Made by a program: the position numbers and the translations under genes
The notes under the pieces: generated by a model
Databases searched by the model: none
What the model saw: only the letters and a program-made list of their open reading frames with translations
What the model was told of the DNA's origin: nothing
Shown: positions 18,001 to 37,342 of the stretch, piece after piece
Position numbering within the stretch: position 1 is the first letter of the stretch
Layout: the number at the start of each line of letters is the position of its first letter
DNA from: Vibrio artabrorum
GTDB taxonomy: Bacteria; Pseudomonadota; Gammaproteobacteria; Enterobacterales; Vibrionaceae
Direction: 5' to 3'
DNA: 64,000 nucleotides
Assembly (NCBI RefSeq): GCF_024347295.1
Contig: NZ_AP025458.1
Location: 3,038,001-3,102,000 of the forward strand

Positions 18001-18915
18001 CTACACAGCCTGAGCCGTAAGTTGCTTCAATAATCTATCCATCGCTCGGTAGCCAAGCGCTTCCGATAAGTGTTTTTTTTCAATCTGTTGATTGCCATCA
18101 AGGTCAGCAATCGTCCGAGCAACTTTAATAATTCGATGATAAGCACGAATCGACAATCCCAGTCGATGCAGTGCCGTTTCTAGGAACTCAGCATCTTCGC
18201 GTTTTAATGGACAATACTTTTCAATTTCTCGACTACCAAGCAATGCATTCGACTTATGGTTTCGAGACAACATCAACTCACGAGCCTGCTTTACCCTCTG
18301 TTGAACCTCATGGGTGGTTTCTCCACGATCACCGCCCTCAGCTAGCATCCCTTTGGGTAATAAGGGGATCTCCAAAGACATATCAAAACGGTCAAGCAAT
18401 GGGCCAGACAACCGATTGAGGTAACGTAAAATGATCTGTGGATTAGCACGCGCCTGATTCCCTTCGTAGTATCCCGTAGGGCTCGGGTTCAGTGCCCCTA
18501 TTAACTGAAATCGAGCTGGAAAACGCGTCTTACCTGCCGCACGTGAAATAATGATCTCACCAGATTCCAAAGGTTCTCGCAGTGAATCAAGCACCTTACG
18601 TTCAAACTCGGGCATCTCATCAAGAAACAGCAGACCATTGTGTGCCAAAGAGATCTCTCCAGGGCGAGGGATTGACCCTCCCCCCACTAATGCCGCCATC
18701 GAACTCGAATGATGAGGAGCTCGAAAAGGTCTTTGTTTCCAGTTGTATTGATTGATCTCTTGTTGCGTTAACGAAGCAACGGAGGCCGTTTCCATTGCCT
18801 CTTCGTTGCTCATCTCAGGCAATAAATCACGCAATCGTGAAGCTAACATCGTCTTGCCAGTTCCGGGGGGGCCGAGAAAGAGTAAATTATGGTTACCGGC
18901 CGCCGCTATTTCTAC
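18001..18915 (-). pseudogene. comM: comM (yifB) C-terminal fragment, split by the island
   Basis: 304 codons from VEIAAAGNHN to the stop: the AAA+ core of the ComM branch-migration helicase, with Walker A GPPGTGKT, Walker B LLFLDEMPEF, and the C-terminal Mg-chelatase-type domain. The N-terminal 203 codons are at 37343-37951. The frame stays open a further 18 codons into the island to a TTG at 18969, so a truncated AAA+ protein could in principle be made, but no Shine-Dalgarno is evident. Intact ComM promotes integration of heteroduplex DNA in natural transformation. Confidence 0.93.
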
Positions 18916-18923
18916 ACGTCTAG

Positions 18924-18931
18924 CGTCACCT
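18924..18931 (+). repeat. Left inverted terminus of the element
   Basis: CGTCACCT, exact inverted copy of 37331-37338. Inward of both copies there is a looser shared pattern (AGTTT... then AAGTAT), which could be recombinase arm sites. Confidence 0.6.
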
Positions 18932-19570
18932 AGTTTTTTACTAAAAGTATTATAAATACTGCCAGACAAGGCTTACAAAGAGATAACACAAAAAAGTGTT
19001 ACTTATGCATACTTTATATGTACTGATTTGAGGTTTTATGGAAAATCGTTACCTAAACGGAGGGATTTGAGTATTGAGCGATCACATCAGAAAAACCCAT
19101 TGAATATCAAACATTATATGGAGCACACAATCTAGACAGGTTGCTCTATATTGGTTGTGCCTATCTCTAAGCTATCTCACTTAGCCGTCATACTTTACTG
19201 ATAAATATTTGGTTTGGCCTACCTTTTCTTATCAGTTTGGTGAGAATTTAGTATGCTGGGAGCTTATCACTTTCCAATTAGTGGCAAGCTGCTTTTGCTA
19301 CACCAAAGCCAATTCAAGCATCGTATTGTCGTATATACTATAAATGGTTCAAAGAAGGCAGCTACAACTGATGAATTGATAGGGGTTCTAGTACTAACAT
19401 AAACGTGTCATAACCCCACTATGTGAATAGAATAGGTTTTAAGCAGCAATGAAAGTAAAAATTGAGAAGACTAGTGATGGTGAAGCTTTGCAATAGGGTG
19501 TTTACCGCCAGCTTACAGAGAAGTCCATGTAATGCTCGAGTTAATGTTAAAAACACCAATTTGAGTACCA
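18932..19570. other. Left-end non-coding region of the element
   Basis: About 640 bp with no supportable gene on either strand; AT-rich and interrupted by stops. It contains an imperfect hairpin whose arms, 19522-19537 and 19563-19578, match at 13 of 16 positions and run into the 36-bp repeat. It probably holds recombinase-binding and terminal sequences plus decayed IS material. Confidence 0.5.
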
Positions 19571-19606
19571 CATGGACTGTTTAGTTCCCTATCATGCGAC
19601 AGAGCC
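19571..19606 (-). repeat. 36-bp inverted repeat, left copy
   Basis: Exact reverse complement of 28819-28854 (36/36). Its inner end reads GGCTCTGTCGCA toward the cargo, resembling the terminal repeat of an IS6-type insertion sequence. The two copies bracket cydX through luxS. Confidence 0.85.
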
Positions 19607-19802
19607 GCTTTAAATTCAGGAGAGTGGTTTCTACGTTTTCTAGTCATAATCTGTTCCAATGTTTCTGGGTACTATCACAACAGATCAATCACTTAAAGTC
19701 ATGTCCGAAAATTGGGGGCCACTTCTCCGATCTCACGTTAAACTAAATCAACGGCTCAACATGTGACTAATTTGTATAGATACCAATGCTCAGAACCCCA
19801 GG
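19607..19802. other. Non-coding stretch between the repeat and cydX
   Basis: No gene seen. It includes a stretch near 19698-19730 (GTCCGAAAATTGGGGGCCAC) that looks like insertion-sequence debris but cannot be assigned. Confidence 0.35.
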
Positions 19803-19910
19803 TTACTCACTGTCTTTATCCATCATTTCTGAGTGCTCTAACCAAAGAGCGTTGATGATACCGAATGCACAAGCAAGTAGTACACCTAGAATCCATGCGA
19901 AATACCACAT
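19803..19910 (-). CDS. cydX: Cytochrome bd oxidase small subunit CydX
   Basis: 35 aa single-pass membrane peptide: MWYFAWILGVLLACAFGIIN, then NALWLEHSE and an acidic tail. This is the canonical CydX pattern (MWYFxWILG...). CydX stabilises the haem groups of CydAB. It lies 12 bp after cydB with a GGAGCTA Shine-Dalgarno. In the usual Vibrio core cyd locus cydX is followed by ybgE and ybgC-tol; here there is none. Confidence 0.93.
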   Translation of the reverse strand: MWYFAWILGVLLACAFGIINALWLEHSEMMDKDSE

Positions 19911-19922
19911 AGTAATAGCTCC

Positions 19923-21059
19923 TTAGTATAGTGAGTTTTTGTTTTCTTCGATGAACTGGTCATCCAAGCGGCCAAACATCTTGTAGTAAGTCCAAGACGT
20001 GTAAGCTAGGATGATTGGAACCATAACAAACGCTACGCCTGTCATTAGGTTCAAAGTCAGTTCAGATGAAGTTGCATCCCACATTGTCAGACTTTGGCTT
20101 GGCATTAGGTCTGAAGGCATTACGAATGGGAACATTGCGATACCAGCAGTAAAGATAACACCAGCGTTACCAAGGCTTGACGTTAGGAACGCGATACCAC
20201 ACTTCTCTAGGCGAGATGCCAATACAGCTAGAAGCGGCATAGCAACACCTAGTACAGGTGCAGCCCATAGTAGTGGGTAAGCTTCGAAGTTGTTCATCCA
20301 CGCACCAGCTTCACGGATAACCTCTTTGTTTAGAGGGTTAGAAGCCGCTGCAGTGTCGATACCACCTACGATAACGTAGCCTTCGATGCTTTGGATCCAG
20401 AAACCAGCAACCACAAATGCAACCACTGTTAGTAGACCAGTAAGCTGAGCTACGTTACGAGCACGAGTATGTACTTCGCCAGTTGTCTTCATTTGAAGCC
20501 AAGTTGCACCTTGCATCAGGATCATGAACAAGCTTACTAGACCACATAGCAGAGCAAATGGGTTTAGTAGACCAAAGAATGAACCGTGGTACGTTGGCAT
20601 TAGGAATTCATTCAACTGGAATGGAACACCTTGTAGAAGGTTACCAAACGCTACACCAAAGATGATTGGTGGAACGAAACCACTGATTGAGATACAGATA
20701 TCCCAAGTGTCACGCCATTTTTTATCTTCAATCTTTGAACGGTAATCAAGACCGATTGGACGTAGCCAAAGTGCCGCTAGAGTTAGGATCATCGCTAGGT
20801 AGAAACCAGAGAACGATGTCGCGTAAACCAAAGGCCATGCTGCGAACAATGCACCACCAGCAGTGATAAGCCATACTTGGTTACCATCCCAGTGAGGTGC
20901 GATCGAGTTAATCATTACACGACGTTGCGTGTCGTTTTTACCGATAATAGGTACAAGTGCGCCCACACCCATATCGAAACCGTCAGTAATTGCAAAGCCA
21001 ACTAGTAGAACACCGATCAGTACCCACCAGATGGATCGCAAGATTTCGTAATCAAACAC
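19923..21059 (-). CDS. cydB: Cytochrome bd ubiquinol oxidase subunit II
   Basis: 378 aa, polytopic (about nine membrane helices), starting MFDYEILRSIWWVLIGVLLVGFAITDGFDMGVGAL, a typical CydB N terminus. It pairs with CydA to form the bd quinol oxidase, an oxygen reductase of high affinity that resists NO, sulfide and cyanide better than haem-copper oxidases. It lies 17 bp after cydA. Base composition is like core Vibrio genes, unlike the AT-rich doxX/cfa neighbours. Confidence 0.95.
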   Translation of the reverse strand: MFDYEILRSIWWVLIGVLLVGFAITDGFDMGVGALVPIIGKNDTQRRVMINSIAPHWDGNQVWLITAGGALFAAWPLVYATSFSGFYLAMILTLAALWLRPIGLDYRSKIEDKKWRDTWDICISISGFVPPIIFGVAFGNLLQGVPFQLNEFLMPTYHGSFFGLLNPFALLCGLVSLFMILMQGATWLQMKTTGEVHTRARNVAQLTGLLTVVAFVVAGFWIQSIEGYVIVGGIDTAAASNPLNKEVIREAGAWMNNFEAYPLLWAAPVLGVAMPLLAVLASRLEKCGIAFLTSSLGNAGVIFTAGIAMFPFVMPSDLMPSQSLTMWDATSSELTLNLMTGVAFVMVPIILAYTSWTYYKMFGRLDDQFIEENKNSLY

Positions 21060-21076
21060 CTTTTTGTCTCCTTGTC

Positions 21077-22663
21077 TTACGCTTCTATTTGGCGACTAAC
21101 TTTGTCTTCAACAGAGTCAGCGTTTTGCTCGAAGTGGTAGCGACCAGTTTTCAGGCTGCTTGGACCTTTACGAGCGAATTTCACCATTAGGTATGCTTCT
21201 GCAATTAGGAATGTGGTGTATAGTGCTAGGATTGCAAATAGTGAAGTCCAGATTTCACTTGTTGTCAGTGCTGAAGCAGCAACGTGTACCGGTAGGATTT
21301 CATTTACAGCCCACGGTTGACGACCATACTCAGAAACGAACCAACCTGCTTCGATAGCAATCCATGGAAGTGGAATACTGAACAATGCAGCTTTAAGAAT
21401 CCATGGTTTCTGTTCGATCTTCTGACGACATGTTTGGATGAATGACGCACCAAATCCGAATAGCATGATGAAGCCACACGCAACCATGATACGGAGCGAC
21501 CAGAATAGCGGCCATACTGTTGGGATTGAATCATCCGCAGCGGCTTGGATTTGGTCTTCAGTCGCGTCAACAACCTTGTCTGTGTAACGTTTTAGAAGTA
21601 GACCGTAACCTAGGTCACCTTTCACTTCGTCAAATGCAGTCATGTTTGCTTCAGACTTGTCGCCTGCACGCAGTTTTTCAAGCAATTCGTATGCGTATAT
21701 ACCGGTACGGATACGGTCAACGTGCTCTTCACGTAAGTCATGTAGACCTGTTACTTTCTCGTCAAATGAACGTGTCGCGATGATACCCATTATGTAAGGG
21801 ATCTTAATTACGTAATTGGTGTTCATTGTTTCTTGGTTCGGTAAACCAAACAAGGAGAGAGCCGCTGGTGCTGGCTCTGTGTGCCATTCAGCTTCTACTG
21901 CTGCTAACTTCACTTTTTGAACTTCACCAAGTTCGTAACCAGATTCATCTCCTAGCACGATAGTAAACAAGATTGCTGCCATACCGAAAGAAGCTGCGAT
22001 AGCGAACGAACGACGAGCGAACGCCACATCACGGCCTTTTAATAAGTAGTAAGAACTAATACCTAGAACGAACATTGCACCACACGTGTAACCAGACGCG
22101 ACTGTGTGTACAAATTTAACTTGCGCTACAGGGTTTAGTACAACGTCTGCGAAGCTCATCATTTCCATACGCATAGATTCAAAGTTGAACTCAGCGCCAA
22201 CTGGGTTTTGCATCCAGCCGTTCGCAATAAGAATCCAAAGTGCAGAGAAGTTAGAACCCAGAGCAACCAACCAGGTTACAGCTAAGTGTTGATGTTTTGA
22301 TAAACGATCCCATCCGAAGAAGAATAGGCCAACAAAAGTTGACTCAAGGAAGAAAGCAACCAGTGCTTCGATCGCCAGTGGGGCACCGAAGATGTCACCT
22401 ACATAGTGGGAGTAGTATGACCAGTTCGTACCAAACTGGAACTCCATGGTAAGACCAGTAGCCACACCCAGTGCAAAGTTAATACCGAACAGCTTACCCC
22501 AGAACTTGGTCATGTCCTTGTAGATTTGCTTGTTCGTCAATACGTACATCGATTCCATAATGGCCAAAAGAAAGACCATACCGAGAGTCAATGGTACGAA
22601 TAGGAAGTGATACATCGCTGTCAGTGCAAACTGAAACCGCGACAGATCAACTACGTCAATCAT
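21077..22663 (-). CDS. cydA: Cytochrome bd ubiquinol oxidase subunit I
   Basis: 528 aa from ATG 22663 ([22 protein letters not shown]), with an AGGAG Shine-Dalgarno. Haem and quinol features: the His in the first helix (FALTAMYHF), the HTVASGY helix with the haem b595/b558 His, the long Q-loop near residues 255-370 (L-type, as in E. coli), and GRQPW. It lies in an island, so it is probably a second copy beside the expected core cydAB near tol; the core copy is outside the window. First gene of cydABX. Confidence 0.95.
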
Positions 22664-22717
22664 GGTAACTCCTATGTGTCTGCTGAATGACACTCTCTAC
22701 ATGTTGCAATTTATATG

Positions 22718-22736
22718 CAAGTGTTATTTACACTTG
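22718..22736. promoter_or_regulatory. Inverted repeat upstream of cydA
   Basis: CAAGTGT-TATTT-ACACTTG: perfect 7-bp arms, 55-73 bp before the cydA ATG. Candidate operator. An FNR-like but degenerate TTGTGATAATTCAA lies just upstream. The regulator is not known. Confidence 0.4.
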
Positions 22737-22919
22737 AAAAATATTGAATTATCACAACGCTTTTTTGCAAAAATACGCTTTGTTGGTTGATTGGATCCTG
22801 CCGAAAATATAGGTTTAATCCATCCGACACGAGCCTGAACTATCCACCTATTTCAAACTCATTTCTCTCTTGGAATAGAGTCAAAACCCCCATTGTGATA
22901 TTGTTAAAGAGCTTGCTAT

Positions 22920-23675
22920 TCAGCCTCGCCATCGCTCTAGAGCGACCGCACCACCAACCTTCGGAAGCATGAATGGTATAGTTACCATGAAGTAATAAAA
23001 TGCTAGCTCCCAGCCTCCTCCCGGCAAAATCCACGTATAACCGACAGAGAAGTGACCACCAACGATTTGAGCAACAACTAGGTAAGATGCAGACATAAAC
23101 GCACCGAATCTTGAGAATACTCCCAGACCAAGTGAAATAGCGGTTGCAAACTCAACAATACCGCCCAATACAATTAGAGCATTTGCTGTTGAATCGGTAA
23201 GAGGGTGACCAACCACCAAATTACCAAATCCATTCGCAAAGAATCCAACTAAACCAGCATCATGAGATGATACGAATAGCTTTTCCGTACAGTGCGTCAA
23301 CCAGTTCAAACCGATAAAAATGCGGATCATGCTAAGTGCAGTTTCAGTCGAACCTTCAACCAGATATGTCTTTCTAAAAACAATGAATGCCTGTAGCAAC
23401 AACGGTATATATGTTACTGCTGCAACCCAACCAATTGCAGTCCAATCATGTTGATCGGCGTTTCGAACTACAATCGTGTTGAAAAACAGCGGGATTAAAA
23501 ATGATAGTGTTAAATTGTTCCTAAAAACATAAGCTGCTACGGGGACCAACAATGCAGCAGCAACAGTGGCTATCATTGACCAAGTTCCGTCATACAACTC
23601 AGCGTTGAACACCGCACTGGCCAAAGTAATTAGACCAGTAATGACGACTATCATAGAATAGTTTTTTCTTTCCAT
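22920..23675 (-). CDS. DoxX-family membrane protein
   Basis: 251 aa, about seven to eight membrane helices. The C-terminal half is DoxX-like: RIFIGLNWLTHCTEKLF, FSRFGAFMSASYLVVAQ, and GHFSVGYTWILPGGGWELAFYYFM. DoxX/DoxD proteins are membrane partners in quinone-linked redox or thiol/oxidative-stress systems; the exact reaction here is unknown. An AGGAGA Shine-Dalgarno lies 6 bp before the ATG. It lies between marR and cydA on one strand, so marR-doxX-cydABX could be one unit, though the gap to cydA is 256 bp. Confidence 0.8.
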   Translation of the reverse strand: MERKNYSMIVVITGLITLASAVFNAELYDGTWSMIATVAAALLVPVAAYVFRNNLTLSFLIPLFFNTIVVRNADQHDWTAIGWVAAVTYIPLLLQAFIVFRKTYLVEGSTETALSMIRIFIGLNWLTHCTEKLFVSSHDAGLVGFFANGFGNLVVGHPLTDSTANALIVLGGIVEFATAISLGLGVFSRFGAFMSASYLVVAQIVGGHFSVGYTWILPGGGWELAFYYFMVTIPFMLPKVGGAVALERWRG

Positions 23676-23728
23676 TTCTTTCTCCTATACAACTACCGCA
23701 TGCGCATGTAGCTGACCTTTTTGTTGTA

Positions 23729-24211
23729 TTACGTTATTTTACTCATGATATTAATTAGAGATTTCTTATCATCATCACTTAAGTTAGAGAACTGTTCTGA
23801 CATCACATCAAAAAATATTGGATGGATTTTTTGCACAAGCTCCAAACCAGATTTAGTTAATGCTACTTTTACACTTCTCTTATCACGAATATCATGTCGT
23901 CTTTTGGTCAGTCCTTTTGACTCAAGTCTATCAACGCGATTAGATAGTGCGCCCGATGAGGGTAAAAGTGTTCTCTCTTTTAATTCTTTTGCAGTAAGCT
24001 CATGCTTACCTCCGGATCTGTATAATGTTGCAATAACGTCGAACTCTGAGGTATTTAGACCGTAAGATTTGCAAAAATTACAACGAGTATTAATTATGTT
24101 ATTAGAAAATAAGACAAATTGAGTATTCAACTTAACATCAATATCAGATAAATTTGGATTGATATCCATCCACTCTCTAAATATTTCTTTGTCTTTACCA
24201 TTATTTTTCAT
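23729..24211 (-). CDS. MarR-family transcriptional regulator
   Basis: 160 aa with a winged helix: YGLNTSEFDVIATLYRSGGKHELTAKEL, then LPSSGALSNRVDRLESKGLTKRR (recognition helix) and the wing DIRDKRSVKVALTKSGLEL. MarR proteins are dimeric repressors that release DNA on binding phenolics or on cysteine oxidation. Two Cys in TRCNFCKSYG near residue 47 could be redox-sensitive (inference). ATG 24211 has GAGGTG 5 bp upstream. AT-rich. Upstream of doxX by 53 bp. Confidence 0.9.
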   Translation of the reverse strand: MKNNGKDKEIFREWMDINPNLSDIDVKLNTQFVLFSNNIINTRCNFCKSYGLNTSEFDVIATLYRSGGKHELTAKELKERTLLPSSGALSNRVDRLESKGLTKRRHDIRDKRSVKVALTKSGLELVQKIHPIFFDVMSEQFSNLSDDDKKSLINIMSKIT

Positions 24212-24393
24212 GCACACCTCAGTTATGACGCTATATGTATTTTAAAACTAGCAATTGGAACTTAGTTACTGCTAACTGAAACATCAAAGTCGAGAAGATG
24301 ACGATGCCAGTTGAGATGACACAAAAGTCTACCAAAAAGATTGGTAAATACTTAATGGTTTTCTTAATTAATGTTAATGGATTCAGTGGCATA

Positions 24394-25542
24394 TCACCCA
24401 ACTCTTCGACCGTTTGGTGATTTAGTTCCCACTTTAGTTAATGACATTTGCCACACGCTTAAATCGCGACAGCGAAAGGCGCCAGCACAACTCAATAGGT
24501 AATATTTCCACATTCGATAAAAGCGTTCGTCATAATCGATTTGTTTTGTCGTCCATGCCTTATGAAAATTTTCATACCAAGCACAAAGAGTCAGGTCATA
24601 GCTCTGACCTATATTGTGCAAGTCTTCCATGTTAAAGGCAGGTTCCATTGCAATAGAGAGCTGCGCCAATGATGGAATTTCACCATTAGGGAATATGTAC
24701 TTATGAATCCAAGGATCATTTGTTGTTGTTGACTCAAAAGAACCGATGGTATGAAGCAAAAAAATTGCATCATCTTTCATGAGTTTATTTGCGCATTTGA
24801 AAAAATCAGAATAATTTGATGAACCAACATGCTCTAGCATCCCAACTGAAACTATTCGGTCATATTTTTCATATGGTTCATATAGTCGATAGTCTTTAAG
24901 GATAAAGTTTACTGGAACATTTTTTTCATCTACTAGGAGAGAACCAAGCTTTGCTTGCTCTTCGGATAGTGTCAATCCATCACAAGTTACACCATATTTT
25001 TCAGCAGCATAGATCATAAAACTGCCCCATCCACAGCCGATATCTAGAATTCGCATCCCCGGTTTTAGGTCTAACTTTTTGCAAATTAAATCAAGCTTTG
25101 CCTCTTGTGCATCATCTAGATTATCTGAGTTATCCCAGTATGCACACGTATATGTCATACGTTTATCTAACATTGCTTTGTATAAATCATTGCCAATATC
25201 ATAATGAAATTGAACGTTTTTCTTTGATAAAGATGTTCCTTGAGGATTAAAGAATTTTTTTACTTTGCTTTTTCCGATGTGCGCTCCAAGAACTAATTTT
25301 TTCTTTAGATCTAATTTCTTATCGATTTTAGAAGCAAGTACTCTAGAGATCATTTCAGCAATGTCATCACAATCCCACATTTTATCCATGTAAGACTCGC
25401 CAAAACCAAGAGAGCCATCTGTTAGCACTCGGTTAAATACGGCAGTGTCATGGATTTGAATGTCCCAAGGTCTATTGCCGTTAATTTTTATGTCTGCAAC
25501 AGCAAGCATTTCTTCAAACATAGCGTACTCACCCTCTTTCAT
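24394..25542 (-). CDS. cfa: Cyclopropane-fatty-acyl-phospholipid synthase
   Basis: SAM-dependent enzyme that methylenates the double bonds of unsaturated phospholipid acyl chains at the inner membrane. ATG 25542 (GGAG Shine-Dalgarno) gives 382 aa, exactly the E. coli length. SAM motif ILDIGCGWGSF; bicarbonate-site residues seen in TCAYW, MLEHVG, LLHTIGS and AWYENF. N-terminal lipid-binding region NGSLGFGESYMD-like (DGSLGFGESYMD here). AT-rich compared with core genes. Divergent from the EamA gene. Confidence 0.95.
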   Translation of the reverse strand: MKEGEYAMFEEMLAVADIKINGNRPWDIQIHDTAVFNRVLTDGSLGFGESYMDKMWDCDDIAEMISRVLASKIDKKLDLKKKLVLGAHIGKSKVKKFFNPQGTSLSKKNVQFHYDIGNDLYKAMLDKRMTYTCAYWDNSDNLDDAQEAKLDLICKKLDLKPGMRILDIGCGWGSFMIYAAEKYGVTCDGLTLSEEQAKLGSLLVDEKNVPVNFILKDYRLYEPYEKYDRIVSVGMLEHVGSSNYSDFFKCANKLMKDDAIFLLHTIGSFESTTTNDPWIHKYIFPNGEIPSLAQLSIAMEPAFNMEDLHNIGQSYDLTLCAWYENFHKAWTTKQIDYDERFYRMWKYYLLSCAGAFRCRDLSVWQMSLTKVGTKSPNGRRVG

Positions 25543-25595
25543 TTCTATTTCTCCAAAAGAATTAAATTGAGCAAAGACTTTACTACTCAAGAAGG

Positions 25596-25620
25596 TTTAT
25601 GTAAAGTATATTTACGTAAA
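25596..25620. promoter_or_regulatory. Tandem palindromic 10-mers between cfa and the EamA gene
   Basis: TTTATGTAAA (25596-25605) and TTTACGTAAA (25611-25620), spaced 15 bp start to start in a 96-bp divergent promoter region. TTTACGTAAA is self-complementary. It looks like a two-site operator, possibly for the MarR protein of the same island (inference). Confidence 0.45.
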
Positions 25621-25638
25621 CATTAATTGAGAATTGAA

Positions 25639-26532
25639 ATGAAAATACTTTTGGCGATATTGGCGCCATTGTTATGGGGAACTACTTATGCAGTTTTGAC
25701 AACTTTTTTTAAAGGATGGTCTCCTTTTGCGTTAGCAGTTTGGCGAGCGCTTCCAGCAGGAGTTATTTTACTAGCATTAAGACCGACTCTGCCTACAAAG
25801 CAAGAATTGCCTTGGTTGTTATTGATTGGGTTGCTAAATATAGCGCTCTTCTTTGGTCTTCTTTTTGCTGCTGCTCTTTACCTACCTAGTACTCTGGTAG
25901 GCGTTGGAATGATAGCGCTTCCTGTCATTGGCATTGTTGTTATGGCAGCCGCTCACAAGGTACATCCATCAAAAGTTCAATTTATTTCATCTGCAATTCT
26001 TATTGTTGCGGCTTCATATTTATTCTTAACCTCATCAACATCTATTAGCTTGATTTCAGTAATTTTGCTTATCGGCTCGATGACTGCACTTATTGCAGGC
26101 AGCATTGTAACTAAACATGTAATGAAGACCATAAATTGGTATAAATTATTGACGTGGAAGCTTTTATTTGGTGGGGTAATTCTTCTTCCAATTGCATATT
26201 GGGATGTGAATTTAAGAGGAATTAATTATGTTTCAGCTATTCCTTCATCTCTTCATCAATGGGAAGCAATGGCGTGGTTAGTTATTGGTTTAACTTGTAT
26301 CGCATATGGGGCTTACGTATTCACAATTCCATTGATAACCACTACAGAGTTAAGTTTTTTTGGAACTATCAATCCAATTCTAGCAATGGTTCTAGGAGCA
26401 ACCGTAATGGGAGAACAATTCAGCACAACTCAAATTACGGTAATGATGTGTATGATCGTGTCAAATTTAGCAGCTCAAACATACGAAAGCCTGAAAAAAC
26501 GCCAACCAGAAGCAGTAATAATCGAATATTAG
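25639..26532 (+). CDS. EamA/DMT-superfamily transporter
   Basis: 297 aa, ten predicted membrane helices in two EamA repeats: LLWGTTYAVLTTFFKGWSP in the first and IAYGAYVFTIPLITTTELSFFGTINPILAMVLG in the second. DMT transporters export amino acids, purines or other small metabolites; the substrate cannot be read here. ATG 25639 chosen over TTG 25627. AT-rich. It is divergent from cfa and followed by metK 143 bp downstream. Confidence 0.88.
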   Translation: MKILLAILAPLLWGTTYAVLTTFFKGWSPFALAVWRALPAGVILLALRPTLPTKQELPWLLLIGLLNIALFFGLLFAAALYLPSTLVGVGMIALPVIGIVVMAAAHKVHPSKVQFISSAILIVAASYLFLTSSTSISLISVILLIGSMTALIAGSIVTKHVMKTINWYKLLTWKLLFGGVILLPIAYWDVNLRGINYVSAIPSSLHQWEAMAWLVIGLTCIAYGAYVFTIPLITTTELSFFGTINPILAMVLGATVMGEQFSTTQITVMMCMIVSNLAAQTYESLKKRQPEAVIIEY

Positions 26533-26675
26533 CAAACCCAATAATCATTTTCGTAATTCGAACATGGAAATTGAAAATAGACGTCTAGATGTAGAAATGC
26601 CTACAAAACATATTGTATTTTTCGTGGCAAGCTTGCGTTAGTTAGCCATGAGTAAACCTTAAGATTGGAGCTATC

Positions 26676-27830
26676 ATGACTAAGCACCTGTTCACTTCTG
26701 AGTCGGTATCAGAAGGTCATCCAGATAAAATCGCAGACCAAATCTCTGACGCAGTTCTTGACACAATTATTGAGCAAGACCCAAAAGCACGCGTGGCTTG
26801 TGAAACTTACGTAAAAACCGGTATGGTTATGGTTGGTGGTGAAGTAACGACTTCTGCATGGGTTGATATCGAAGAAATCACTCGTGAAACAGTTCGTGAA
26901 ATCGGCTACGTTCACTCTGACATGGGCTTTGATGCGAACTCGTGTGCGGTTCTAAACACCATCGGTAAGCAGTCTCCAGACATCAACCAAGGTGTTGATA
27001 AGGCAGACCCTAAAGAGCAAGGCGCAGGCGACCAAGGCATCATGTTTGGTTACGCTACAAACGAAACTGAAATTCTAATGCCAGCTCCAATTACTTACTC
27101 TCACCGCCTTGTTCAAAAACAAGCTGAAGTTCGTAAGAGTGGTAAACTAGATTTTCTTCGCCCAGATGCGAAATCTCAAGTAACTTTCCAATACGACCAA
27201 GGTAAGATTGTTGGTATCGATGCTGTTGTTCTTTCAACTCAACACTGTGATTCAGTAACAACACCTGACCTACGTGAAGCGGTAATGGAAGAGATCATCA
27301 AGCCAGTATTACCTTCAGAGTGGATCACTAAAGATACCAACTTCTTCATCAACCCAACCGGTCGTTTCGTTATTGGTGGTCCAATGGGTGACTGTGGTCT
27401 AACTGGTCGTAAAATCATCGTAGATACTTACGGTGGCGCAGCTCGTCACGGTGGTGGTGCGTTCTCTGGTAAAGATCCATCGAAAGTAGACCGCAGTGCA
27501 GCTTACGCAGCACGTTACGTAGCGAAAAACATCGTAGCTGCTGGCATGGCTGACCGTTGTGAAATCCAACTTTCATACGCTATCGGTGTTGCTGACCCAA
27601 CATCTATCATGGTTGAAACGTTCGGTACTGAGAAAGTATCACATGAAATTATCATTGATGCGGTTCGTCAAAACTTCGACCTACGTCCATACGGTCTACA
27701 AGAAATGCTTAACCTGCTTCAACCTATCTACAAGCGGACGGCAGCATACGGTCACTTCGGTCGCGAAGAGTTCCCATGGGAAGCAACGGATAAAGCAGCT
27801 ATCCTACGCGATTTCGCTGACATCAAATAA
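26676..27830 (+). CDS. metK: S-adenosylmethionine synthetase
   Basis: Makes SAM from methionine and ATP; a cytosolic tetramer. 384 aa, complete: [20 protein letters not shown] at the start, [12 protein letters not shown] (signature 1), and [16 protein letters not shown] (signature 2, phosphate loop). TTGGAG Shine-Dalgarno. Sequence and codon choice resemble a highly expressed core Vibrio gene, unlike neighbouring cfa. The normal chromosomal metK is expected elsewhere, so this is probably an extra copy within the island. Supplies the substrate of the adjacent CFA synthase. Confidence 0.96.
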
Positions 27831-27851
27831 CCGAGTCATGCAAGAATCGAT

Positions 27852-27882
27852 AAAGCCCTCGCCTCTGGTAGAGGGCCTTATT
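27852..27882 (+). terminator. Terminator-like hairpin after metK
   Basis: GCCCTC, a 10-nt loop, GAGGGC, then CTTATTAT. The weak T tail leaves termination uncertain. Confidence 0.55.
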
Positions 27883-27888
27883 ATCTGA

Positions 27889-28213
27889 GTCCAGTTAGTG
27901 ATGAAGCAGCGGCCAAAGCCTTTCTAAAATAAGGCGGTAGCTCAAACGGCTTACCAGAGGAAGCGGTGATAGATGACAATGAAAAACAACACTGCTATCG
28001 ATGAATGAAACAGAAAATTCGACAAGTGCTGGGGCTACACACCTCCAACTATATTTGTGACAGAACCCGCGGCGGCTATAAGCGTGGGGCCTATAAAAGC
28101 AAACCTAGCTTAATTAAAGTTGCAACACGCGTGGAGCAAACTACAAAGACGTATGGCGGGCAGTTGAAGCAATGTCGTCAGGAATTAGAAGACTACAGCG
28201 GCTGGCTCTTTTA
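27889..28213 (+). pseudogene. Unrecognised gene relic between metK and luxS
   Basis: A reading frame runs from about 27933 through a TGA at 28002-28004 and continues from ATG 28005 to TAG at 28211-28213 (69 codons). The peptide on both sides of the stop looks coding (NGLPEEAVIDDNEK before; CDRTRGGYKRGAYKSK after), suggesting an eroded basic protein. I do not recognise the family. It could instead be a real 69-aa ORF. Confidence 0.3.
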
Positions 28214-28295
28214 GCCCCCTAATACGTTAAGGGGAATGAATAGAAATGATGACCAATACGTGTAAGTATTGGAGGTTACAATCAGGAGATATGTA

Positions 28296-28814
28296 ATGCC
28301 TTTATTAGACAGTTTTACCGTAGACCACACACGTATGCATGCTCCAGCAGTTCGTGTGGCTAAAACGATGCAAACTCCAAAGGGAGATACCATCACAGTA
28401 TTTGACTTACGTTTTACGGCACCGAACAAAGACATCCTTTCTGAGAAGGGAATTCACACGTTAGAGCACTTGTACGCTGGCTTTATGCGCAACCACTTAA
28501 GCGGTGATAGCGTTGAGATCATCGATATCTCACCAATGGGTTGCCGTACTGGTTTCTACATGAGTTTGATTGGTACGCCTTCAGAGCAGCAAGTGGCGGA
28601 TGCTTGGGTTGCAGCAATGGAAGACATATTGAAAGTAGAAAGTCAAAACAAGATCCCTGAGCTGAATGAATACCAATGTGGTACAGCAGCAATGCACTCT
28701 TTAGATGAGGCAAAGCAAATCGCGAAAAACATTCTAGAAGCGGGCGTTGCAGTCAATAAGAATGATGATTTGGCACTGCCAGAATCTATGCTGAAAGAGT
28801 TGCGTATTGACTAA
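28296..28814 (+). CDS. luxS: S-ribosylhomocysteine lyase LuxS (AI-2 synthase)
   Basis: Cleaves S-ribosylhomocysteine to homocysteine and DPD, precursor of the signal AI-2. 172 aa from ATG 28296 ([14 protein letters not shown]), with AGGAGAT as Shine-Dalgarno. Metal ligands are in [12 protein letters not shown] and the Cys of [20 protein letters not shown] is also present. In Vibrio the core luxS usually sits next to gshA; here it is in island cargo after metK, so probably a second copy. The partner Pfs nucleosidase is not in the island. Confidence 0.96.
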
Positions 28815-28818
28815 ATTA

Positions 28819-28854
28819 GGCTCTGTCGCATGATAGGGAACTAAACAGTCCATG
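28819..28854 (+). repeat. 36-bp inverted repeat, right copy
   Basis: Starts GGCTCTGTCGCA four bases after the luxS stop; exact inverse of 19571-19606. It is cut on its outer side by the IS5-family element that begins at 28855. Confidence 0.85.
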
Positions 28855-29908
28855 GGCTTTGTTGCGTAATTCGATGGAACTAAATCAGAAAGTTACGATC
28901 TGATCGGCTAAATCAGCTAATCTTCGTTGCCTTATGCCGAAACCTCGTTATAAAACAACTAACTGGAAACAGTACAACAAAGCCCTAATAAACCGTGGTT
29001 CACTTACTTTCTGGATTGATGAGGAAGCGATAGCCGAGTGGAAGCAAAACAAACAAGGCAAGCGTGGTAGACCTCGCCGATTCAGCGACTTAGCCATTAC
29101 TACCGCACTGATGGTGAAACGCGTTTTCTCTCTGCCATTGAGAGCGCTGCAAGGTTTTCTAGACTCAGTATTGAAGCTGGCTAACATCCCGCTTGTTTGC
29201 CCGCACTATACCTGTATAAGCCGCCGAGCTAAGGAAGTTGAGGTTTCATTTAAAACCAAAACCAGAGGAACAATACAACATCTGGCCATTGATGCCACTG
29301 GCCTCAAGGTTTATGGCGAAGGTGAATGGAAGGTCAAGAAGCATGGTACTGATGGGAAGCGCAGAGTCTGGCGTAAGCTGCACATCGCAGTAGATACAAA
29401 CACCCACGAAATAGTCGCAGCAGAGCTGAGTTTATCTAACGTAACCGATGCCGAAGTGCTCCCAAACTTGCTAAAGCAGACACGTCGTAAAATCATTGAG
29501 ATATCAGGTGATGGCGCTTATGACACAAGGGGTTGCTATGATGCTATACGGATCAAGCGAGCGGTTCCACTCATCCCGCCACGAGAAGGGGCGGCATTCT
29601 GGGAACGTGGGCATCCTCGTAATTTAGCGGTAGGTTGTCAGAAGCTATACGGCTCCAACAGGACTTGGAAAAAGCAGTATGGCTATCATAAACGCTCGCT
29701 GTCAGAGACAGCAATGCATCGAGTGAAACAGCTGTTGGGTGGGAAACTCAGTCTCCGAAATTACAACGCTCAGGTTGGTGAGACTTACGCCATGATCAAA
29801 GCTCTGAACAAGCTTACAGGACTTGGTATGCCTGAAACTCAGTATATCGTTTAAAAATCAAGCGTGATGGAACGGGCATGTCTTCTCTCTGAATTAAGCA
29901 ACAAAGCC
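28855..29908 (+). mobile_element. Complete IS5-family insertion sequence (1054 bp)
   Basis: Terminal inverted repeats GGCTTTGTTGCGTAATTC (left) and GGCTTTGTTGCTTAATTC (right, inverted), 17 of 18 matching. One transposase gene. The flanking 9-mers (CAGTCCATG and TCACACAAT) differ, so there is no target duplication, suggesting rearrangement or an adjacent deletion after insertion. Confidence 0.9.
28934..29854 (+). CDS. IS5-family (IS903-like) transposase
   Basis: 306 aa, intact. DDE residues are visible: LAIDATGLKVYG (first Asp), ISGDGAYDTRGCY (second Asp), and KRSLSETAMHRVKQLLG (Glu within the Y-(2)-R-(3)-E-(6)-K-like box). It cuts and pastes its own element. The N-terminal region RYKTTNWKQYNKALINRG is typical of the IS903 subgroup. 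ATG 28934; the reading frame is uninterrupted, so the IS may still be active. Confidence 0.93.
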   Translation: MPKPRYKTTNWKQYNKALINRGSLTFWIDEEAIAEWKQNKQGKRGRPRRFSDLAITTALMVKRVFSLPLRALQGFLDSVLKLANIPLVCPHYTCISRRAKEVEVSFKTKTRGTIQHLAIDATGLKVYGEGEWKVKKHGTDGKRRVWRKLHIAVDTNTHEIVAAELSLSNVTDAEVLPNLLKQTRRKIIEISGDGAYDTRGCYDAIRIKRAVPLIPPREGAAFWERGHPRNLAVGCQKLYGSNRTWKKQYGYHKRSLSETAMHRVKQLLGGKLSLRNYNAQVGETYAMIKALNKLTGLGMPETQYIV

Positions 29909-30230
29909 TCACACAATCTACATATTTACCATTGATAATGAGAAATATCACATAAATACAATCACTTCAGGCCTAACTTATTCACGCAACATTTCAATTC
30001 CGTGAGCATATCGAGCTCTATCATTGGATGAATACTTCTCAGGCAACAGTACAACCCTACACCCACACAAAGCCTATGAGTAGCGCGCACGAAGAGAAAG
30101 TAGTAGTACATAACGGGGTATGAAGCCCAATGAAACGTACACGCTTAATTCTCGAAGTTATTCCTATTTAAATTCAAAACTAGGGGGATGTTGTTATAGC
30201 CTTTACCTAAAATAGTCACTTCACTGCGCA
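29909..30230. other. Non-coding stretch between the IS and the recombination module
   Basis: 322 bp, no supported gene on either strand. It is possibly the scar of a deletion adjoining the IS, since sequence matching the outer flank of the left 36-bp repeat is not found here. Confidence 0.5.
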
Positions 30231-30635
30231 TTAAAGCTTCCCATACTTTTCTTTATATTCTAGTAGTAACTCAGATGCATTCTCGTATCTGACTCTCATA
30301 TCATCATACATGCTGTACAAGGCGTTAATGTGTGATAGTAAGGCAGATACGTCATCACCTTTAGCCGACTTACTCAACTGTGATATAGCCTTCTGCTGCT
30401 TCTTATTCTGCTCTGTTAGCTTCTTATTTTTATAGGATAAATCTCTATTATCCCATTGTTTTTTTTGAACTTGCCCCGCAGTGTCAATTTTTGCCAATAG
30501 TTTAGGATAGTTATTGGCAATGTTAGAGCGTTGGCAGCCTAGATATCTCGCGATGGCATTAGCATTTATTTTTCTATCTTCACTGATAAAAAGGGCTAAA
30601 GCCTGCTCGATTTTTTCCTCTGATACTTTACCCAT
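30231..30635 (-). CDS. Small HTH/coiled-coil protein, SRAP-like
   Basis: 134 aa from ATG 30635 (AGAGG 6 bp upstream). N-terminal helix-turn-helix: KIEQALALF...INANAIARYLGCQRSNIANNYP. Then a Lys/Gln-rich coiled coil (LSYKNKKLTEQNKKQQKAIS) and a helical tail. The position as fourth gene of the recombination operon and the size fit the SRAP accessory protein of SE elements, by memory; the role in directing recombination is inferred. It overlaps intB by 8 bp. Confidence 0.65.
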   Translation of the reverse strand: MGKVSEEKIEQALALFISEDRKINANAIARYLGCQRSNIANNYPKLLAKIDTAGQVQKKQWDNRDLSYKNKKLTEQNKKQQKAISQLSKSAKGDDVSALLSHINALYSMYDDMRVRYENASELLLEYKEKYGKL

Positions 30636-32685
30636 TATAAACCTCTTTTGTTCCATTACCTTCTATATCAGATATAGCCTTATCAGCTGATGCTAGCGTC
30701 CTTTTCAAGACACTTAAGAAGGTTTGGTATCTATCAGCTAAGCCAGCATCCATGATTCGGCTAATGCCTCGCTCGGCGCTGTTTTTGGTTGCCGTCCAAA
30801 ATGGTAAGTGCCTTCTAGTCGCAAAATATGTATAACAATAAATACAGCTATCAGGAACGGCCACATTGTGCATTTTACAGCTAGAACCTGCTGCACAATA
30901 ACCATGAGGTAAACCAAGGATTCCATCACTGTTTTTTGTCGCCAAGGCAATTAGCTCTTGAATACTCTCTATATGTTCGTGATGGTCTGTCGAGAATATA
31001 ATTCCTGATTGTCCTTTGTTTAATTTATTGACGATGTTTTTCAGCCGTTTGCCACCGCCGCCACCTATTTCACCTTTTATAGCGCTTTCAACAATATCGG
31101 TAATTACTTCCTCTGTTAAAAGAGCATCAAATCCCTCGATAATATTTTTTAAATCATCAATCGCCTCAAAACCACGTTGAGCATAAACAAATGTGACCAT
31201 CTCGCTCATATGCTTAAACTGTTGGGATATATGATGGATATCGCCTAATTTATTGGCAATAATGAACCACGCAAAACTATGCCTCAACATATGAGGCGTA
31301 ACTCTGAAAATATCTCCTACTTTATATTCAACTCCTCTCATACCAGAGTTTGCACTTACTGATTTATAGTTGCATTTGTATTTTTTTAAAAACTCAATAT
31401 CAGACTCTGTTACTTCAACTTCAATTAAATCTAACGCTACAGCAGTCGAGCCTTGCCCAGAAGTATCAGTTTTAATTGGTTTGGTTGGTTTAGGAAACCA
31501 GAGGTTTCCTTTTTGTGATGCGTAGTTAAATGCGAAGAGATAATTATTTTCAAGAGCTTCTTCAAATAGCTCCTCGTTCCTTTCACTAATTTTTGAAGGA
31601 TAGTATTCTAGAATTAGCTTAATTCTATCATAATAGACAGTATTAACGTCACTTAGTAATTTCATAGCGTCATACACTTGTTTACAGGATACCCAATCAA
31701 GAACAACATCCTCATTGGTATATTTCCTCAATGTTGACTCAATGAAATATTTCACCTTCCCATTTTCTCTTTTACACTTATGAGCGTTGTTTTTTGTTGC
31801 TTTGCCTTCCGATACCCTAAACCCTGTAAGAGCTAGCAACATAGTAAATGCATAAGGAGTTATTCTTCTTATCTTATCCCTTAGCCCCCTATATTCAACA
31901 ACTTCATCTTTACTCAGCATTCTAGGTAATATACTTAAAACATTCTGGTTCACATTTGGGTTTCTTAGTGCATAAGCTTCAAAATTGACATTAACTTTTT
32001 TTCCTAGGGTGATAAACCGCTTTATATCCTTTTTATTTTCAAATAATTTACTACATTCAGAAATTATTTTTTTCTGAATCATCGGTGGAACTAATGGGTG
32101 TTTCAGTCGGTTGACAGTATCAGCTTTAGTTCGTTTGGCTTTAGTGTTAGCCTCAATAACTTCCTTTGAAAACTCTTGATTTATGAAGTTCAGCTCAAGC
32201 AATACGGTCAAGGAGTCCTTAACCACACCAACTGTTGACGGACCATGCTCCTGCCGATAGTTAATATAAGATGAAACAACATCATTAAACTTCAACTTTG
32301 GTAATTCACCTAATTCATGAAATGATTCATAACCTCTGGAGTTAAGATACTTTGAGAGTCTTATCAATTCTTTTATTATTCTTGAAGATGTACTGAACCT
32401 TTTTGTGGCACCTCCTAGTTTAGTACCACGCTTAGCTATTAAGATAAAAATCGTTTTTACTTCAAACTCGAATATAGGAAGCGTCTCTATTACGAGTCTT
32501 TTTTCAGTTTTATTTGGTCTAAATTTATTACCTTTAAAATTGTAAGCTTCGCCGCTCAACTGTGATTCGTAGACAGTAAAATCAGGTATTTTATTGATTT
32601 CTTTCAATGTTAGCCTATTAATTTTATAGCTTCCATCTAGCTCTTGAGACACTAGCTTATCAAACACTTCATCCAATTTATTCAT
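30628..32685 (-). CDS. intB: Tyrosine recombinase, IntB-like
   Basis: 685 aa. The catalytic domain is in the middle: box I ALTGFRVSEG (Arg near 290), box II PHMLRHSFAWF (His-x-x-Arg near 467), FKHMSEM (third His), and TFVYAQRG with the nucleophile Tyr near 501. A C-terminal extension of about 180 aa has Cys pairs (CAAGSSCKMH...CIYCYTYF), possibly zinc-binding. Longer than ordinary integrases (about 400 aa). It overlaps the upstream gene by 8 bp, so translation is coupled. AT-rich. Confidence 0.85.
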   Translation of the reverse strand: MNKLDEVFDKLVSQELDGSYKINRLTLKEINKIPDFTVYESQLSGEAYNFKGNKFRPNKTEKRLVIETLPIFEFEVKTIFILIAKRGTKLGGATKRFSTSSRIIKELIRLSKYLNSRGYESFHELGELPKLKFNDVVSSYINYRQEHGPSTVGVVKDSLTVLLELNFINQEFSKEVIEANTKAKRTKADTVNRLKHPLVPPMIQKKIISECSKLFENKKDIKRFITLGKKVNVNFEAYALRNPNVNQNVLSILPRMLSKDEVVEYRGLRDKIRRITPYAFTMLLALTGFRVSEGKATKNNAHKCKRENGKVKYFIESTLRKYTNEDVVLDWVSCKQVYDAMKLLSDVNTVYYDRIKLILEYYPSKISERNEELFEEALENNYLFAFNYASQKGNLWFPKPTKPIKTDTSGQGSTAVALDLIEVEVTESDIEFLKKYKCNYKSVSANSGMRGVEYKVGDIFRVTPHMLRHSFAWFIIANKLGDIHHISQQFKHMSEMVTFVYAQRGFEAIDDLKNIIEGFDALLTEEVITDIVESAIKGEIGGGGGKRLKNIVNKLNKGQSGIIFSTDHHEHIESIQELIALATKNSDGILGLPHGYCAAGSSCKMHNVAVPDSCIYCYTYFATRRHLPFWTATKNSAERGISRIMDAGLADRYQTFLSVLKRTLASADKAISDIEGNGTKEVYNG

Positions 32686-35600
32686 GGCTATTACCTACAA
32701 TATTAGATAATGGAAATGCAAACTCCCAATCAGGGTGCAGCCCCTTTGTCTCAATTAAAGATCTCGCTTTATTAACAATGTCTGGCTTAGATGCTTCTAT
32801 GAAAGATATAATGTCATCAACTCTCTTTGACAATATGTCAACGAACTCCCTCTGATTCTCAGGATCTTCATTGTTGACTATAGCTCGCTCCATTGATGAT
32901 ATGACATATTCTTTATATGACAATAACTTCCACATATGGTCTGCGTCTTTCACTACTTTAAAATACTTACACCAAATACAAGCAAGAAAATCGCCGCAAT
33001 ACTTATTGTCTTTATCAACAATTTTAGCATTTAATTTATTAAATCGTTTCACTTCATCGCTATCTGGTTCTGATGAGCAAACTCCTACTGGTGTTTCTTG
33101 AGCATTATCAAGTTCATTAATATCATCGATAGCATTTAACTCTTGGCTTATTTCTTTCCCTGAGAAATAGTTAGCCATTATATCGATCCCCCTTGAAAGT
33201 GTTTCCTCGCCCTCAGATTTTGATATCGCCTTGTAGCTTTTCAGGAAAGTTTGAAAGTTATGAGCAGCCAATTCCTCATATTCTCTCACACTCTTGGCTA
33301 TATTTTTGTAAATAAAATTCACACCACCTTTCCTAATTTTTCTTGGGTTATAGTGTATCTCGCACCCCAAGTCTGATATTAATTTAGGTATCCTTCTTAA
33401 ATTACCGGCATCTATCCTTTTTACACCATTTACGTCACATGGCTCTATAAATAAATGACTTTCTATACTGTGTCTTTCCCTTAATTCAGAAGTTAGGTTA
33501 TCTCTGACAAATATAATATCTCTTACAACCGACCTTAAGTCTCGGTCTGCAACTGAACTGCTATCAAAGTCATATTGACTTGACTTATATGAACGCCTAT
33601 TTTTAATCAAAACCAAGTCATAGTTTTCTTGATTAGTTATAGGATTAACTCTTTTGGTTAATCTATCTAGTGATAAGTCCAATAATGGCTGTTGATTCCA
33701 ACCTGTCTTTATTTGTATCTTTGCATAATAGAAATATATTTTATCACGTAAAGAATTATTTTTACATCTTAGTGCTTTCTCTATGTAGAAAGCCAACTCT
33801 CTAACTTCTTCCACTGTATAGTGTTTATTGCTATTACCAGAAATCTTTTTAATTTTCTCATCTTTAGAGTTTGATATAATATACACATCTGGAATCTCTC
33901 CAGCAAACTCGCCAATAATACTCCTAAATGAATTTCTATAGTGCATAATTGTTGTGGAATTTTCGCTCTTATCTTTTACAAGAGATTGAAATATCTCTAA
34001 GCAAGTAACGCCTACATTATATTTTCTATCAACAAAGGCTAATAACCCATTATCTTTTATTGCCTCTAATTGTTTACCGGATAATCTTGGCAAGACTTTT
34101 TTTAAACCAGCTATAAAATTCTGAAGTTTTGAGTGATAGGTTATTTCAGATATATCAATATGGTCTAGATTTCGCATATATTCTTCATGTTTTACTTTGA
34201 AGTCATAGAAAGCCTTTTCTGATAAATACCCTAAGACATCTAGGCTCATAGGTTTAATTTCATCATTTCTTGATATACCGCTAAAATATAACGTATATGG
34301 AGAGTCTTTTATAACAAATACTTCTTTATTGAAATGATGTTTTAGTATTGACAATCCAAGACGATATAGTGACTTTGCTCCGATTAATCTAGCGCGATCA
34401 TTAATCCTATCATTTATATCTTCTTTATCTAAATAATTAAGACCAAATCTACATAACTCATTAAAGTCATTATCAGGTAGTATCTCTTTTAGCAGTGGAA
34501 GACCGATAGAATCAAAGTCTGAAAAATAATGCATGACAGTGGTTCTACTTACTCCCTTAAATTCATGTTTTGTAGCTATATCCGCTAATTCATTGAATAT
34601 TACCTTTGAGTATTTGTAGGTATTTTTTAAAAATACATCTCCTCCTTGTAACTTAAGTGGCACTCTATAATTTGGGTAATAAATACCTAGCTGAGTCAAG
34701 ACTTCAATCATAGTTTTATGATTAAAATGATCTACATTTCCCTTTAAATCTTCTGACAGATCTATATTTTCATTGAATATCAACAGATTTACATCAGTGA
34801 ATATTTCTTTATACTTATCACTACTTTTTATGTATTCAATTGCTTCTAATGCACCAATTATATTCAACCTGACAGTGCATTCTTTAACATCATTACTTAG
34901 TTTCTTAACTTTCCAATCAACAAGTGCATCAAAGAATTCAATCGACACATGGTAAGCACTGTATAACACAGGGGTATCAACCCCTTCATGTTTAGTTGTT
35001 GTAATTAAATCAGCCTGCTTATAAACACCATTAGAGTAATTTATTAAGTTAGTTAGTTGTTTTATTCGTAGCAAAGCTGATTTTTCGTCACTTACATTGT
35101 ATATGGTATACTCAAGATCGATCCAATCCACCTTATTGATTATAAGTGGATGCAAACCTTTTTCTTTTAACTTCTTGATTTGCTGATTATTCAAAAGAGG
35201 TAAGATGTCAAAAAAACCTTTGATAGAGCCAGCAAGCGTTACTGATAATCCACCATGTTTGTAAACAGAGGAAGTTAAGTCTCTTAGATCTTGAAAAAGC
35301 TTTGTTCCAAAAAGTCCATGATTAAAAATGAGATCACTGTGTAATTGAAGTCTGTACTCATTACCTACCAGAGTCTCTGTAGTAACTATTTTAGATGTTG
35401 CATAAATACCATGAGAGTAATTTATGATATTTGCTAAAGCCTTTCTTAACCCTACTGCTTTTTTGGGGTTAGAAGCATGAGCAGCATGAATAAGATATTC
35501 TAACTCAACCCATACATCTGTTTCTTCTAACAAGAAGCTTACGCCAGAACCTCTCAATACCTTAAGGTTTTCATCGGATAAACAGTCCAAGAGTTCAAAG

Positions 35601-37245: not shown

Positions 37246-37330
37246 ATGGATAACCACTGTTAAGTAACACAAACTAAAGGGTAACACTTTTTGCATTATT
37301 TTACAGGTGATACTTCCATAAACTTGATCG

Positions 37331-37338
37331 AGGTGACG
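37331..37338 (-). repeat. Right inverted terminus of the element
   Basis: AGGTGACG on the plus strand, exact inverse of 18924-18931. Confidence 0.6.
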
Positions 37339-37342
37339 GTGA

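Follow-up and report, generated by a model that had tools for sequence, protein, structure and literature searches.

The stretch of Vibrio artabrorum DNA examined here (the window; 64,000 nucleotides, G000:C1:3038001-3102000, from a genome of 2 contigs and 4.44 Mb that is 99.98% complete) contains an integrative element of about 18.4 kb (18922-37341), resembling those of the SE type, that interrupts comM (yifB) after about codon 203. The displaced C-terminal part of comM lies on one side (18001-18921, minus strand; YifB family model positions 200-501, tblastn residues 202-507) and the N-terminal part on the other (37343-37951, minus strand; ChlI domain, tblastn residues 1-203), and intact comM from two relatives covers 18004-18921 and 37343-37951 in tblastn, with nothing between. 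Genes in the window were identified by Pfam and NCBIfam profile matches. The cargo comprises, on the minus strand, a CydX-like open reading frame (19803-19910), CydB (19923-21059), CydA (21077-22663), a DoxX protein (22920-23675; DoxX domain, 1.6e-6), a MarR regulator (23729-24217; MarR_2, 6.9e-12) and a cyclopropane fatty acid (CFA) synthase, cfa (24394-25590; PRK11705, above cut-off), and, on the plus strand, an EamA exporter (25627-26532; EamA, 1.2e-22), MetK (26676-27830) and LuxS (open reading frame 28269-28814, likely start 28296). The island reading frames, these nine cargo genes included, are all open; LuxS retains H54, H58, C83 and C128, and CydA retains the eight positions checked (H19, E99, E107, H186, K252, E257, R391 and M393), whose roles and numbering we assume to be those of E. 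coli. The initial annotation, which had placed this gene set in a mobile island at 19803-28814, was right about the genes and about the island, here seen as an element in comM with tyrosine recombinases; its span takes in the cargo and is too narrow for the element.

At one end of the element, four genes follow one another on one strand in the order intA-tfp-intB-srap. The intA-like tyrosine recombinase (35770-37341, minus strand; Phage_integrase, 9.9e-12) belongs to a listed open reading frame of 590 amino acids that extends to 37542, into comM. It is followed by a tfp-like protein of 1031 amino acids (32678-35773, minus strand), which corresponds to Tfp in position and size and shows neither a Pfam family match nor an HxxR motif, by an intB-like large tyrosine recombinase of 685 amino acids (30628-32685, minus strand; Phage_integrase, 3.1e-6), and by a srap-like protein of 141 amino acids (30231-30656, minus strand), recognized by its position and its conservation in relatives and showing no Pfam family match. 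The integrase domain is found in the first and third proteins only, and the IntA-like and IntB-like proteins carry the catalytic HxxR and H...Y motifs (HGSR and GH...Y in the former, HMLR and KH...Y in the latter). The ends of the element may form an imperfect inverted repeat, with 11 of 14 bases matching in the best ungapped comparison (lengths of 13-19 were tried) and CGTCACCT identical; the end on the comM C-terminal side is known to within a few bases.

The order, sizes, domains and catalytic motifs of this module fit, as far as sequence can tell, the SE type, intA-tfp-intB-srap. In the portion of the source available, SE-6283 and SE-6945 likewise have, at one end, four co-directional genes encoding a tyrosine recombinase, a large protein without the motif, a large tyrosine recombinase and a small protein (PMC10214605), and SEs are described with imperfect inverted end repeats of 13-19 bp, to which the ends seen here may correspond, and with site specificity, which has a counterpart here (PMC10214605). 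The size of 18.4 kb compares with a median of 15.7 kb given there (PMC10214605), and, as in SEs, no conjugation genes were found among the scanned proteins. The cargo differs, consisting here of core metabolic genes, whereas resistance genes are reported in 4 of 37 SEs (PMC10214605). GInt islands and Tn554 also combine several genes of the tyrosine recombinase type with a small protein and target specificity; however, in the same portion of that paper, ginA and ginB have the catalytic motif and ginC lacks it, whereas here the protein without the motif is the second, Tn554 is without a tfp counterpart, and SE genes show no blast similarity to GInt genes (PMC10214605). A Tn7-type insertion into comM was considered and rejected, given that no Tns-type match was found among the scanned proteins and that tyrosine recombinases are present. 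The searched text of PMC10214605 has 0 matches to comM under the names "yifB" or "magnesium chelatase", its 10 matches to words beginning with "comm" not having been checked individually, and among the matches listed in a search of the open-licence literature by title and start of abstract, no paper described the gene set or SEs in comM. In another Vibrio genome, comM is split at a different place by about 6.1 kb (G114:C1:3149332-3156344), so that comM would seem to be a recurrent target for insertion.

Relatives of the module were sought across the genus (226-227 Vibrio genomes, one genome per species, for this and all genus-wide comparisons). The 1031-residue protein exceeds 80% identity in 3 of 226 genomes, including the host, the matches in the remaining 48 of 51 genomes being distant or short. 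Among named genomes, it is 87% identical at the amino acid level in V. rhodolitus G98, 95-96% in V. tasmaniensis 1F-187 (on two contigs) and 62% in a Colwellia assembly; the corresponding values for the srap-like protein are 93%, 99% and 63%. The V. harveyi plasmid pVH3 carries a copy of the module with 98% nucleotide identity, in which the recombinase genes are annotated as fragments; this copy spans 30221-37341 of the window and ends there. The insertion occupies the same place in comM in the window and in V. rhodolitus, and that of V. tasmaniensis is also in comM, with an alignment unbroken across the junction. In all three Vibrio relatives the similarity to the window breaks off at 30221, a short way beyond srap. 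The V. rhodolitus element encodes Thoeris ThsA (2.6e-200) and ThsB (3.9e-59), at L135:7130-9026 (G131:C13), and the far end of the V. tasmaniensis element encodes a ThsB-like TIR protein (1.4e-13), at L134:585-1133 (G213:C197). No cyd, metK, luxS or cfa was found beside the module in these relatives, where contig ends truncate what can be read of the V. tasmaniensis cargo and the only comparison for pVH3 was that with the window. By these comparisons the vehicle is common to the relatives and the cargo is not, which suggests that a comM-targeting vehicle carries defence genes in the relatives and metabolic genes here.

The host genome was searched for second copies with the DNA of 19500-29900 as query. 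It contains a second cydAB (C1:1842306-1845215; 77% nucleotide identity, with CydA at 87% and CydB at 73% amino acid identity), a core metK with a full-length open frame (C1:2609310-2610536; 87% nucleotide and 96% amino acid identity), a core luxS (C1:2503882-2504386; 80% and 89%), a doxX paralogue (C1:1517236; 74% and 70%) and an eamA paralogue (C1:681282-682117, L050; 66% and 64%), all distant from the island; no second cfa or marR was matched in this DNA search, no protein-level search having been made. The proposal that the island carries duplicated enzymes consequently stands for cydAB, metK, luxS, doxX and eamA, and duplication is not shown for cfa and marR. Since the host has core copies of cydAB, metK and luxS, as had been anticipated, the genes have not simply moved, and a move out of the host core, like a local duplication, was rejected on the grounds that the core copies are present and only 77-87% alike in nucleotide sequence. 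An IS5-type gene adjoins the host eamA paralogue (L050).

Whether such genes are normally single in Vibrio, as had also been supposed, depends on the gene. A second metK close to the core gene (at least 90% amino acid identity) occurs in 1 of 226 genomes, that of the host itself. Two metK matches are present in 10 of 226; the other nine represent five paralogues of 56-60% identity (G138, G081, G182, G089 and G028; L064-L068), which constitute a divergent second MetK, one match of 44% with a stop, and three split genes. The supposition is too sweeping for cydAB: a second cydAB-like locus, with 67-69% nucleotide identity, is found in at least 5 of the 14 genomes compared in detail (G066, G078, G087, G088 and G021), as well as in G213 and G180.

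These 14 genomes, of 227, were chosen by us for a comparison of core loci, 8 of them through a match to the stretch upstream of metK, together with 6 others. Three blocks of the island match the core loci of two of these Vibrio genomes, G066 and G107, and end abruptly: cydA-cydB-cydX with 125 bp of upstream sequence (19800-22788, minus strand; 95% to G066, 96% to G107), metK with its own promoter region (26553-27868, plus strand; 96% and 95%), and luxS with the 3' end of the gene upstream of it (28068-28818, plus strand; 95% and 85%). Similarity to the donor loci stops 3 bases past the cydX stop codon in the first block and inside the metK terminator in the second, and in the third it is bounded by a point inside the gene upstream of luxS and by one 4-5 bases past the luxS stop codon. 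The end of the metK block is less clean than the others, as similarity to the host core metK continues for another 14 bases, to 27882. A MetJ-type box, AGACGTCT, lies at 26579, upstream of the island metK, and is present in the donor match too. In G072, a genome of 2 contigs, the three loci share a contig but are far apart on it, at 1.01, 2.72 and 2.80 Mb. By these matches, cydABX, metK and luxS appear to be independent pieces of core loci that lie far apart, probably in a single foreign Vibrio lineage akin to G066, a pattern that fits accretion better than an inherited pathway. As each fragment has kept its upstream region, expression of these genes would be expected to follow their normal regulation, by MetJ in the case of metK, and to add to the existing dose.

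The island copies differ in the constraint under which they have evolved. Relative to G066, the ratio of non-synonymous to synonymous divergence (dN/dS) is 0.046-0.066 for luxS, cydB and metK and 0.117 for cydA. When changes are polarised by G066 and G107, those on the island branch of cydA divide into 24 non-synonymous and 35 synonymous; for the two relatives combined the figures are 1 and 48 (Fisher p 5.5e-7). The corresponding counts are 6 and 17 against 3 and 32 for metK (p 0.13), 2 and 10 against 3 and 31 for cydB (p 0.59), and 1 and 3 against 7 and 51 for luxS (p 0.43); pooled, the latter three genes lean the same way as cydA, short of significance (p 0.056). Because the true donor lies outside the sample, part of the island branch may predate the transfer. 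A fair reading is that the island copies are probably working and that constraint on cydA is relaxed; the latter point speaks against a strongly selected spare oxidase.

The marR-cfa-eamA segment presents a different picture. Its stretch (23680-26660) finds matches in 194 of 227 genomes, which, among the matches listed, are mostly to the terminal piece upstream of metK; inside marR, cfa and eamA, none of the matches listed that is longer than 100 bases exceeds 73% outside the host. Outside its own cluster, the island cfa has its nearest named relative in V. barjaei, at 76%. The cluster itself comprises 3 sequences from 3 contigs, the longest of 3,138,694 bp against 3,104,862 bp for the host contig, so that at least one further genome may have it. 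In G088 and G021, cfa, marR and eamA occur together at a chromosomal locus (76%, 60% and 65% amino acid identity to the island, respectively), and G082 has marR and eamA on a contig of 3930 bases. The G088 and G021 locus shares with the island the three genes and the box upstream of eamA described below; it differs in arrangement, in that there the genes share a strand, marR separates cfa from eamA, and the neighbours include an MFS-like gene and a distant DoxX (36-38%), whereas the island has eamA in divergent orientation and doxX next after marR. Counter to the idea of a unit, G087 has cfa without marR or eamA, and the host eamA paralogue has no adjacent marR or cfa. An operator-like box, GTAAAGTATATTTACGTAAAC, lies between cfa and eamA (25601-25621, plus strand), and a 21-bp pattern, GTAAAGTATRTTTANNTAAAC, is found just upstream of eamA in 5 of 5 loci (the island, the host paralogue, G088, G021 and G082), the pattern having been derived from these same five loci with no chance control. 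A shorter form occurs upstream of cfa in the island and in G088, with no exact match in G021 and none in G087. Within the window the 21-bp pattern occurs only between cfa and eamA, and not at metK, luxS or cyd. The box is taken as a candidate MarR operator and, on these comparisons, marR-cfa-eamA is the only part of the cargo that behaves as a unit. The island thereby adds to the host a predicted regulated unit for lipid modification and export, the cfa and marR of which are otherwise absent from the host at the DNA level; as the host eamA paralogue bears the 21-bp box, the island MarR could act on that host gene. A match of the CFA synthase to the defence model mad2 was taken to reflect a shared methyltransferase fold.

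Remnants of insertion sequences (IS) lie at some junctions of the cargo. Two putative IS ends of 36 bp, perfect inverted copies of each other, mark its left border (19571-19606, minus strand) and its right border (28819-28854, plus strand, starting directly after the luxS block), with no third copy in the host genome at up to 3 mismatches. On the left, the 36-bp end is followed by a 121-bp end of an IS3-family, ISVpa4-like element (19607-19727), 72 bp before the cyd block, which is 91.8-97.5% identical to sequences in the best 20 of 31 Vibrio-type plasmid records, several of them annotated as IS3 transposase. On the right, the 36-bp end is directly followed by a complete IS5-family element (28855-29908, plus strand; transposase at 28934-29854, IS5_2, 6.7e-115). 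An IS6-like remnant (27878-28067) ends directly at the luxS block: its 27878-28009 portion matches repeats of 8 Vibrio plasmid records at 76-81% identity, with an IS6 transposase annotation in 3, and 28038-28067 also matches a repeat of the host genome; position 28067 we take, by resemblance, to be an IS6-type end. A remnant of an antitoxin-type cassette (19171-19489, plus strand) is 80% identical to a pVH3 stretch overlapping a gene annotated as MbcA/ParS/Xre antitoxin; this broken cassette is also 80% identical to G213:C121. A composite IS transposon spanning 19607-28818, which would call for two complete copies of one IS at its flanks, does not fit, the two borders having only 36 bp in common, in inverted orientation, and the right one then continuing into IS5. 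In a near search of 19607-28818 against plasmids, the matches among the best 20 of 31 records were to the 121-bp IS end, and a distant search with marR-cfa-eamA found 16 plasmid records at 60-80%, the listed matches all within cfa. We infer that insertion sequences drove the capture of the core fragments, with the qualification that remnants prove neither the capture nor the order of events.

What the locus combines is a vehicle of a familiar type and an unusual load of open core genes of foreign origin. The reading that we favour, with moderate confidence, is that of an SE-type element in comM whose cargo was assembled piecewise by insertion sequences, in which the MarR unit is the part likeliest to be under selection and the housekeeping copies are mostly passengers. 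The four-gene module would move the whole element, as can be surmised from the available portion of the SE study (PMC10214605). Between the end of srap (30221) and the far end, the cargo would have been built up, most likely by insertion sequences, from a MarR-controlled cfa/eamA unit with doxX and from the three core fragments, cydABX, metK and luxS. Upon binding of a ligand, MarR would switch membrane-lipid cyclopropanation and an exporter, and the housekeeping copies, while mostly passengers, would also raise the dosage of their products. Several observations weigh against this account. Similarity to the two experimentally studied SEs did not emerge, the class assignment coming from layout and motifs: no record of V. 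alfacsensis, the species of SE-6283/SE-6945, was found among 52 IntA matches (the presence of the SE plasmid in the collection being unchecked), nor among the best 15 of 153 Tfp matches or the best 15 of 23 IntB matches. The available part of the SE study mentions 11 PSI-BLAST rounds to gather SE members (PMC10214605). The junctions of cyd with doxX (22788) and of eamA with metK (26553) showed no recognisable IS remnant, and the 36-bp ends are assigned to no IS family, so that the proposed IS route is an interpretation of what remnants there are. The donor lineage is inexact, and the true donor lies outside the sample of 14 of 227 genomes: synonymous divergence (dS) of cydB is 0.081 to G107 and 0.136 to G066, that of luxS is 0.108 to G066 and 0.845 to G107, and metK is nearer to G066, so that the donor was related to both and may not have been one strain. 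Finally, metK, luxS and cydB are open with low dN/dS, more than pure passengers need, and the common lineage of all three foreign core genes is left unexplained if they are passengers.

How much of the cargo has been selected can be viewed in several other ways. At one extreme, DNA uptake and IS recombination would have left nothing but decaying foreign fragments, with no selected unit. The IS remnants and the broken antitoxin-type cassette would agree with this, as would the relaxed constraint on cydA and the same lean in pooled metK, luxS and cydB (p 0.056), but all nine cargo genes are open, dN/dS is low for metK, luxS and cydB, and the box upstream of eamA is conserved, which leave this explanation doubtful. 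At the other extreme is the interpretation of the initial annotation, a single stress- or inhibitor-tolerance module in which S-adenosylmethionine (SAM) made by MetK feeds the CFA synthase, LuxS acts after the breakdown of S-adenosylhomocysteine, bd oxidase and DoxX protect respiration, and EamA exports the agent. MetK, CFA synthase and LuxS are connected via the methyl cycle, the genes are open, the MetJ-type box is kept, and cfa, marR and eamA recur as a unit with a common box. The full set, however, occurs in no other genome examined (one genome per species), so that a single tolerance module is not supported; a search for the neighbourhood in other genomes had been proposed as a check, and related elements carry other cargo instead. 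Moreover, the 21-bp box is absent at metK, luxS and cyd in the window, metK keeping the box of its own regulator; cydA is under relaxed constraint; and the blocks look like separate fragments, with marR-cfa-eamA the only unit. We accordingly regard one tolerance module as unlikely. That the element keeps the core genes of one lineage because they are jointly useful, as a spare methyl cycle and oxidase supporting a MarR-switched change of the membrane, or because a spare essential metK makes the element hard to lose, is, in our estimate, rather improbable.

A narrower form of the last idea is that a working metK would make the element indispensable if the core copy were later lost. The gene is essential in many bacteria, and the island metK is open, 96% identical to the core gene in amino acid sequence and provided with its own promoter region, luxS and cydABX being open too; yet the host core metK is open and full length, and neither luxS nor cyd is generally essential. 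No MetK family match was found in G213 and G180, whose contigs stop at the metK locus (G180:C1 at its start; G213:C69 and C87), which points to missing assembly rather than gene loss. These two genomes had been followed as a lead to essential-gene replacement, and the lead was dropped in favour of an assembly gap at contig ends. Such a hold on the host seems very improbable to us. The locus also has a wider interest. Mobile elements are usually expected to carry niche genes, for example for resistance or defence; here an element in one Vibrio holds open core genes of another that normally stay in place, a clear case in which to ask how core genes are mobilised. It also raises the questions of whether mobile DNA can alter the dosage of the enzymes of SAM and autoinducer-2 metabolism, and of whether an essential gene can bind an element to its host.

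A tRNA scan and an Rfam scan (gathering threshold) of the window gave no match. Promoter-like sites numbered 22, against a shuffled expectation of 26.5, with no excess, and terminator-like sites showed a slight excess, 13 against 8.7 expected (sd 2.9). Dense IS5-family copies, 66-82% identical in nucleotide sequence to the IS5 of the island, are present at G000:C2:720825-783485 and elsewhere.

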